Origin: Candidatus Saccharimonadota bacterium
GTDB taxonomy: Bacteria > Patescibacteriota > Saccharimonadia > Saccharimonadales > UBA10212
Reading direction: 5' to 3'
NCBI GenBank assembly: GCA_016187125.1
Contig: JACPKF010000004.1
Span: 23,868-78,933, forward strand
DNA length: 55,066 nt
Made by a program: the position numbers and the translations under genes. Within the stretch, counting starts at the first letter, position 1; every line of letters begins with the position of its first letter. A model generated the notes under the pieces. The model had not been told where the DNA came from. It was given only the letters and a program-made list of their open reading frames with translations, and ran no database searches. This document shows, one piece after another, positions 37,137-38,565 of this stretch.

Positions 37137-38276
37137 TTAGTCATGTATGATTTTTGTGCAGCCGCAGCTGCCGCTAATACGCCTCCCACTCCCAGTCTTG
37201 GTCACGCGGGTTTTAACATTTTTGGCGTGGCACCCGGGACATTCTTTGGAGACAAATTCGCAGTCTTCCTCGGAGGCTTGATTGCCATAGCCAGCCAGCC
37301 GCAACTGACTTTCGATTGAACCATCAAGAAGGCCGTTAGAACGCAGCGTAACACCGCAAGCACTGAAAGACATGCCCATTTGATAAGCCCGAAATCCATC
37401 TATCTCAAGCTCTCTGTGAAGGACGGCGAGCTCAGTTGTTGTCAGACGCGGCATTATGTCAGTTGTTCCCTCTTGGTGCGCCTTGAAACGTTTCTGCATA
37501 GTCGCTGACATCTTGTACATCATTGTGTCGTTGAACCAGCCGAGGCTCTGTAGCCTGACACATTCTTCGATCAAGTCATGTTGCTGGCAGACAAAGTCGT
37601 AAGTGTTGCGGTAGTCGGTCGGACGGCGGCCGGCGTACCATTGTCCCCCAAATTGGGCAGTTAGACTTTGGTCGTAGATGCCGGTTAGTTTATCTGTTAA
37701 AAAGGCTTGATCCTGCTCCGTTAAATCAGCACGAATACGTTGGCCGAGAAGTTCACCGGCTTCAGGCTCAATACCAAAATAGGCATATATAGCTTCCATG
37801 CCCTGGCGGTTTGAACCATCCAGGCTTTGTGAGCTGATAGATATCATATGGCCATCTGGTGCACGGGATAGGACACGCAGCATGGTTTGTTGGCGCCTAA
37901 CGTTATAGCCGCCGACGTCTTCTTCTGCGCTCAAAAGCTCCGGCGGAAAATCCGATACAACGATCATCGTGTTAGGCCCTTTGCCCTGTGCCATTTCAAC
38001 GAGTTCATGAAACTCGTATCGCTCTAGACCACGCCGGCGTTTTTCAAACCGCAAATTAGGATTTAGCTCGGCTATTTTTTCTGCTTCGTCAAGCGACTTC
38101 TTGGTAACCTCATCCATACCGCGGCCATCTTCACCAATTAAATCATAGCCATTAAACCGCAATTCAAAATCGGTACGCATGTTGCCATCAACCAGCTCGG
38201 CGAATTGAGTTTTCAGGTCGTATCGAAATTCTTGTTCGCGCTGCCTCTGAATTTCAGAAGAGACTAGTGTTTCCAA
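37137..38276 (-). CDS. Uncharacterised protein with C-terminal Cys-rich zinc-ribbon-like motif
   Basis: C-terminus ECPGCHAKNVKTRVTKTGSGRRISGSCGCTKI. Start proposed at TTG 38276 (SD AAGGGG) rather than the track start 38357. Confidence 0.6.
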   Translation of the reverse strand: METLVSSEIQRQREQEFRYDLKTQFAELVDGNMRTDFELRFNGYDLIGEDGRGMDEVTKKSLDEAEKIAELNPNLRFEKRRRGLERYEFHELVEMAQGKGPNTMIVVSDFPPELLSAEEDVGGYNVRRQQTMLRVLSRAPDGHMISISSQSLDGSNRQGMEAIYAYFGIEPEAGELLGQRIRADLTEQDQAFLTDKLTGIYDQSLTAQFGGQWYAGRRPTDYRNTYDFVCQQHDLIEECVRLQSLGWFNDTMMYKMSATMQKRFKAHQEGTTDIMPRLTTTELAVLHRELEIDGFRAYQMGMSFSACGVTLRSNGLLDGSIESQLRLAGYGNQASEEDCEFVSKECPGCHAKNVKTRVTKTGSGRRISGSCGCTKIIHD

Positions 38277-38283
38277 AAAAATA

Positions 38284-38304
38284 CCCCTTGCCCAAAGCAA
38301 GAGG
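38284..38304 (-). promoter_or_regulatory. SD-sequestering or terminator-like hairpin CCTCTTGC-TTTGG-GCAAGGGG followed by TATTTTTTT
   Basis: 8-bp stem with two G-U pairs, containing the proposed SD AAGGGG, then a T7 run. Confidence 0.5.
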
Positions 38305-38340
38305 TCAAATGTCCAAAAAACTGACTCTCCTGCTCGGGAG

Positions 38341-38373
38341 CCCCACCCAATTTTCATCGAAAATTGGGTGGGG
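38341..38373 (-). promoter_or_regulatory. 15-bp perfect hairpin CCCCACCCAATTTTC-GAT-GAAAATTGGGTGGGG after the putative aptamer
   Basis: Read directly. Confidence 0.75.
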
Positions 38374-38375
38374 TA

Positions 38376-38482
38376 AAGCTGTATCGGACTCTCCTCTCAC
38401 CTTTCGACAGGCTCAAGGTAAACCGTTGCGGCACAGTCCTCGATTCACACGAGGTTCCAGCCAGCCTGCCGGTAGGCAGGCA
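38376..38482 (-). ncRNA. Cobalamin-riboswitch-like aptamer
   Basis: GGAA-CCTCGTGTGAATCGAGG-ACTGTGCCGCAACGGT ... GAGAGTCCGATAC, in the order of the cobalamin riboswitch core (P3 hairpin, CCGCAACxGU, B12-box-like AGUCxGAUAC). Confidence 0.7.
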
Positions 38483-38565
38483 ACTTAATTTATTAAAGTA
38501 AGTCAATCTTAACACAAGCTGTCGCCCAAAAACGTAGTATTTTTGGCTCCGGATTAGGATTCGAG

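Follow-up and report, generated by a model that had tools for sequence, protein, structure and literature searches.

The window, a stretch of 55,066 nucleotides of Candidatus Saccharimonadota DNA, contains an element that, as classified by sequence, is a real and class-wide cobalamin-type riboswitch. It precedes a gene without recognized family, hereafter gene X. The explanation we consider best, and hold with high confidence, is a corrinoid riboswitch of the RF00174 type with a reduced aptamer and a repressing expression platform, X most likely serving B12 acquisition or sparing. This explanation rests on the RNA family, covariation, conservation of the locus, alternation of the genes under the switch, and co-occurrence with the ribonucleotide reductase NrdJ, and from these we infer the ligand, the sign of control, and the role of X.

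Results

Identification of the riboswitch and organization of the locus

The initial annotation had described a cobalamin-riboswitch-like aptamer on the minus strand, and this identification is borne out by the RF00174 match, by covariation, and by orthologous elements in relatives. All minus-strand elements quoted there are present, positions 38503–38262 reading exactly as given. It had also proposed a search with Rfam cobalamin models: in a permissive scan of 801 bases, the whole RF00174 model matches at 38503–38360 (minus strand) with 29.8 bits and E 1.2e-5, yet this is 1.7 bits under the Rfam gathering score of 31.5. Because of this score, the default Rfam scan at the gathering threshold missed the element and reported only a tRNA. 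Genome-wide, the E-value is 3e-6, and this is the sole match with E<1 in the 828,455-base genome; a reduced genome, as had been supposed (0.83 Mb). PyrR, anti-hemB, and other weak leader matches of the permissive scan were discarded as chance terminator-like matches.

The leader and the gene comprise the following features, all on the minus strand:

38464–38481, minus: P2-like hairpin GCCTGCC-TACC-GGCAGGC directly 5' of P3, identified from the sequence; none was seen in relatives whose leaders were inspected
38378–38462, minus: cobalamin aptamer core (P3–P6 and J6/3), identified by the RF00174 match and by covariation of P3, P4, P6, and alignment columns 28–45
38461–38458 and 38381–38378, minus: P3 (GCTG/CAGC)
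38454–38438, minus: P4
38437–38422, minus: P5/L5/P6
38399–38419, minus: lone hairpin ACCTT..AAGGT in place of class-I P7–P11
38389–38382, minus: J6/3
38341–38373, minus: 15-bp perfect hairpin, a spacer from P3 to P13
38327–38340, minus: P13 hairpin CTCC-CGAGCA-GGAG, with a stem covarying in relatives
38295–38335, minus: predicted antiterminator, nine pairs between 38335–38327 (GAGCAGGAG) and 38303–38295 (CTCTTGCTT)
38275–38305, minus: intrinsic-terminator-like hairpin (38305–38283) and U-run (38282–38275)
37137–38276, minus: gene X, 379 amino acids, with TTG start at 38276 directly after the U-run; a single gene, convergent with a Kef-type antiporter gene
37158–37241, minus: zinc ribbon at the C-terminus of X (C346, C349, C371, C373)

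A hairpin burying the Shine–Dalgarno (SD) sequence or terminating transcription, followed by a TTG-started gene, had been predicted, and both are found: the region 38305–38275 reads CCTCTTGC..GCAAGGGG-TATTTTTTT, the SD sequence AAGGGG (38289–38284) lies within the 3' arm of the terminator hairpin, and the TTG is at 38276. The alternative ATG start at 38357, present in the list of open reading frames, was rejected, as it lies inside the spacer hairpin, and it is the TTG that fits the spacing in relatives.

Distribution among relatives

In the family to which the window belongs, RF00174 yields one match each in 13 out of 16 genomes, own genome included; in two more (G001 and G002), the element upstream of X was recognized by eye, so that 15 out of 16 family genomes carry the switch, and the only one where no element was found, G006, is incomplete. 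In the 13 family loci examined, without exception, the switch and its downstream gene adjoin the convergent Kef-type antiporter gene, and in most of them this downstream gene is X.

In the class Candidatus Saccharibacteria, at least 115 out of 392 genomes have a match at E≤0.01, nearly all of them exactly one; this count is a lower bound, stricter filters losing even the match in the window. The Rfam cut-off is exceeded in 35 class relatives. The resemblance to cobalamin riboswitches is thus far beyond chance, because relatives carry the element and its structure covaries.

A three-part DNA pattern (core, J6/3, and L13) was found in 76 named contigs, mostly of Candidatus Saccharibacteria, and in a few contigs labeled in their records as Doudnabacteria, Gottesmanbacteria, Kerfeldbacteria, Nomurabacteria, Microgenomates, and, once, Anaerolineales. 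In the latter contig (JADGEO010000047.1), the pattern precedes a gene for a reductive dehalogenase-like protein with a twin-arginine signal; the contig may genuinely derive from Chloroflexota or may have been misbinned. Viral contigs contain no exact match to the pattern, and hence the idea that the switch came from a phage is unsupported.

Aptamer structure and covariation

Covariation was assessed in an alignment of 64 distinct sequences, from which the variable P7 region had been cut out. In helices P3, P4, P6, and P13, 235 cells are changed on both sides, compared to 73 in shuffles; 95.8% of cells are paired vs. 79.2% in shuffled alignments, and the covariation score reaches 0.464, compared to 0.140 for the shuffles and at most 0.113 for slid controls. 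Pairing is seen in 99.7% of cells in P4, 100% in P6, and 98.8% in P3, the value for P3, like that for P13, being inflated because complementarity was one of the criteria by which P3 partners and P13 hairpins had been selected. It played no part in the choice of P4, P6, and an additional pair, columns 28 and 45. The latter columns (approximately 38437 and 38388 in the window) connect the base before CUG of L5 with J6/3 and contain A–U or G–C in 62 out of 64 sequences and G–U in two; the two positions probably pair with each other in the tertiary structure of the aptamer.

Hardly any variation is seen in the core, J6/3, and L5, all of which fit the cobalamin consensus, and a corrinoid is very likely the ligand. 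The P13 loop (38336–38331) could pair with L5 (UGCCG) if one A is bulged, and in all 64 sequences L5 and L13 (CG-A-GCA) have five complementary pairs plus one bulged base. Since the paired bases never vary, this kissing pair gains no support from covariation; we infer it from complementarity and the homologous mechanism. In one locus outside the alignment (L033), the bulge of L13 differs (CGTAGCA), and CG and GCA are retained.

The P7–P11 peripheral domain marks class-I cobalamin riboswitches, that is, the large ones binding AdoCbl. In the studied relatives, between about 4 and 147 nt are found in its place, and the full domain is absent from the window, which has one short hairpin, and from several relatives, which have about 4 nt, and therefore the element is not filed as class I.

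Expression platform

The 15-bp perfect hairpin noted in the initial annotation does exist (38373–38341), but it was rejected as the switching element, as it is absent from the other family members whose leaders were inspected; the annotation had overlooked P13 and its loop. The conserved switching element is the P13/L13 hairpin. In most leaders, P13 is followed by a hairpin with a U-rich tail, with the start codon usually 4–8 nt past the hairpin, and an SD-like run is present in the 3' arm of the terminator hairpin in 40 out of 49 leaders. The terminator 5' arm pairs with the 3' strand of its own P13 at -8.3 kcal/mol, whereas shuffles give -5.8 kcal/mol (Fisher p 2e-12), and in 36 out of 49 leaders, the own P13 strand pairs with this arm better than strands of other P13 classes. 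In the window, folding in the absence of ligand is predicted to reach its minimum with the extended antiterminator, at -21.9 kcal/mol, vs. -18.9 kcal/mol for P13 with the terminator, and a kissing loop could close this gap of 3 kcal/mol.

These observations suggest the following mechanism. When a corrinoid is bound, L5 (UGCCG) would kiss L13 (CG[A]GCA) and stabilize P13; with P13 stable, the terminator (38305–38283) would fold, stopping transcription and burying the SD sequence. Without the corrinoid, the 3' strand of P13 would pair with the terminator 5' arm, so that transcription would proceed and the TTG at 38276 would be exposed. Hence, the switch is most likely a repressing one, acting both on termination and on the SD sequence, and, given this repressing layout, X would be produced at B12 scarcity and switched off when B12 is bound.

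Two further elements recur in the leaders of G003, G004, G014, G015, and some others. One is TTAACAA, close to where the transcript presumably begins; the other is a CTTGTTAAG-type hairpin located after P13 and before the terminator, possibly a spacer hairpin or a site of long-range pairing.

Gene X and its replacements

The downstream gene had been noted as lacking a recognized function, and indeed no family of Pfam or NCBIfam matches X over the curated cut-off; the Cys-rich C-terminus is the zinc ribbon, variable among relatives. The homolog search proposed for 37137–38276 revealed a family in relatives and no known protein family: 68 out of 87 distinct downstream ORFs form one BLAST-linked family, X, whose subfamilies are linked by profile comparison (probabilities 98.8% and 95.8%). 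Comparison of X with Pfam, NCBIfam, and PDB sequences yields only zinc-ribbon noise, and there is no known B12 protein that X resembles. Two structure predictions (mean pLDDT 83.9 and 84.5) have much of the order of elements in common; no clear match of the fold was found by Foldseek against PDB and BFVD or by VIA-align, residues 31–211 giving at best Z 5.6 with a PAS-like fold (rmsd 3.1–3.9 over 84–115 residues), and the second subfamily Z<4. No transmembrane segment was found in X. The mean pairwise identity is about 28% for X, compared to 56% for the neighboring Kef protein and 72% for Nramp, all three approximate values from end-gap-free alignments. By these comparisons, X is an undescribed, fast-evolving family of predicted soluble proteins.

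In ten loci, the gene directly after the switch encodes a DUF4430 protein, in several of them followed by a DUF6580 gene. The C-terminal region of transcobalamins carries DUF4430 (PMC4350170). In two genomes, G011 and G012, the DUF4430/DUF6580 pair occupies the usual locus of X beside the Kef gene, and X was not found in these genomes. The pair and X thus share the same riboswitch and, in G011 and G012, the same locus, whereas the proteins differ: membrane or signal segments are present in those of the DUF4430 and DUF6580 families, and X is soluble, carries a zinc ribbon, and has no visible sequence similarity to either.

Two side observations concern the content of this locus. In G151, visual inspection revealed a short DUF4430-like 5' ORF, MSRPTHFTNIKIASLLG.. 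(MSRPT..), between the switch and X, apparently what is left of a gene that has been replaced. In G013 and G003, the place of X is taken by an acidic protein of 529–559 amino acids with a conserved C-terminal segment GTHEIIKK.., for which no relation to X was detected.

B12 dependence and NrdJ

The large subunit of ribonucleotide reductase (PF02867) is encoded in all 16 family genomes, normally once. In the own genome, it scores 1386 bits with NF005122 (cut-off 859) and 599 bits with TIGR02504 (cut-off 400), and so, by profile assignment, it is the B12-dependent NrdJ. The search for other B12-related proteins in these 16 genomes covered the FecCD/BtuC permease, the PduO-type adenosyltransferase (PF01923), and the B12-binding domain (PF02310): no permease scored over the cut-off, and the other two are absent.

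Of 157 class genomes, 45 contain the core pattern and 60 have an NrdJ that scores over the cut-off: both are found in 43 genomes, only the switch in two, only NrdJ in 17, and neither in 95. Thus, NrdJ accompanies the switch in 43 out of 45 genomes, compared to 17 out of 112 genomes lacking the switch. The Fisher p-value is 4e-22 for genomes, 3e-10 with genera as units, and 0.15, not significant, with families as units; related genomes not being independent, the p-values overstate the association. In genus g23, three genomes without NrdJ also lack the switch, which is present in three out of five genomes with NrdJ.

Individual genomes deserve mention. In G072, one of those with the switch only, the nrdJ match is in two pieces. 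G091, 98% complete, has the switch with X downstream and no NrdJ match, and presents a test case for the role of X. In contig QKAA01000077.1 (L185), a 374-aa ORF under the switch is followed by an NrdR-like gene and then an NrdJ-like gene.

Discussion

Role of X and alternative explanations

Regulation by the switch, alternation with transcobalamin-like genes, and NrdJ tie X to B12, and its probable role lies in supplying or sparing B12, where it would stand in for the DUF4430/DUF6580 pair. A bolder version, which we regard as doubtful, is that X is a new B12-acquisition factor, a soluble, fast-evolving, single-copy protein produced at B12 starvation and taking the corrinoid from the host bacterium or acting on the latter, in organisms whose DNA synthesis depends on B12 and which lack the usual families of importers; X and the DUF4430/DUF6580 carriers would have replaced one another under one conserved switch. 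X might instead be a regulator or partner of NrdJ, made at low cofactor and protecting dNTP synthesis, with no part in B12 uptake. The strong co-occurrence of the riboswitch with NrdJ, the lack of any other B12-binding protein (PF02310) in the family, and the ORF of L185 directly preceding the nrdR- and nrdJ-like genes speak for such a partner; however, a partner of a conserved enzyme should change slowly, whereas X retains far less identity than Kef, and X is absent where DUF4430/DUF6580 are present although the reductase is there. We regard this explanation as tentative and rather unlikely.

Other alternatives concern the switch itself. The reduced aptamer, the sub-threshold Rfam score, and the downstream gene outside known families might suggest a cobalamin aptamer re-specialized for a non-corrinoid ligand, which we consider very improbable, as the near-invariant core, J6/3, and L5 fit the cobalamin consensus, some relatives score over the cut-off, ten loci have a transcobalamin-like gene after the switch, and NrdJ co-occurs with it. 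Activation of X by the corrinoid is improbable too: activating corrinoid riboswitches do exist, one cobT riboswitch being an example (PMC10653944), but here P13 and the terminator are separate and compatible, and pairing of the P13 3' strand with the terminator 5' arm is a repressing layout. Finally, the score below the gathering threshold is all that would speak for a chance resemblance or a decaying pseudo-riboswitch, which can practically be dismissed in view of class-wide conservation, covariation, and the fixed spacing to the start codon.

The preferred reading, a repressing corrinoid riboswitch, provides a testable gene-control circuit for a group with reduced genomes, and an undescribed protein family tied to B12 via its regulation. 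Many switch-bearing Saccharibacteria would need B12 for DNA synthesis, and X or DUF4430/DUF6580 are the first candidates for how those with NrdJ obtain it. In the literature available to us, no paper was found that connects cobalamin riboswitches to Saccharibacteria, to Patescibacteria, or to the candidate phyla radiation. Riboswitches have been named promising tools for Patescibacteria genetics (PMC11665869), and a leader that naturally responds to B12 could be used there to control genes.

Comparison with known systems

The element resembles RF00174 in the order of the P3–P6 core, CCGCAAC, J6/3, and the potential for L5–L13 kissing; it differs in that P1 and P2 are not evident in the family leaders inspected and that of P7–P11 only one hairpin or about 4 nt is left. 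The env8HyCbl riboswitch, as cited in PMC10653944, has a kissing loop with a bulge in L13, like the one proposed here; it is described there as a translational switch, whereas the U-run here suggests termination as well. In the activating cobT riboswitch, the 3' strand of P13 is shared with the terminator (PMC10653944), whereas here the two are separate.

The closest parallel in the switching layout is the metE riboswitch of Priestia megaterium, for which the P13/antiterminator logic has been demonstrated genetically, by mutation (PMC10653944): the parallel comprises the L5–L13 kissing loop, putative here, P13, and the 3' strand of P13 as an antiterminator, here a predicted one, against the 5' arm of the terminator. 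L5 of metE is UCCCG (PMC10653944), whereas here L5 is UGCCG and L13 has a bulged A; moreover, compared to metE, the 3' arm of the terminator here also holds the SD sequence beside the start codon, and the target gene belongs to no known family.
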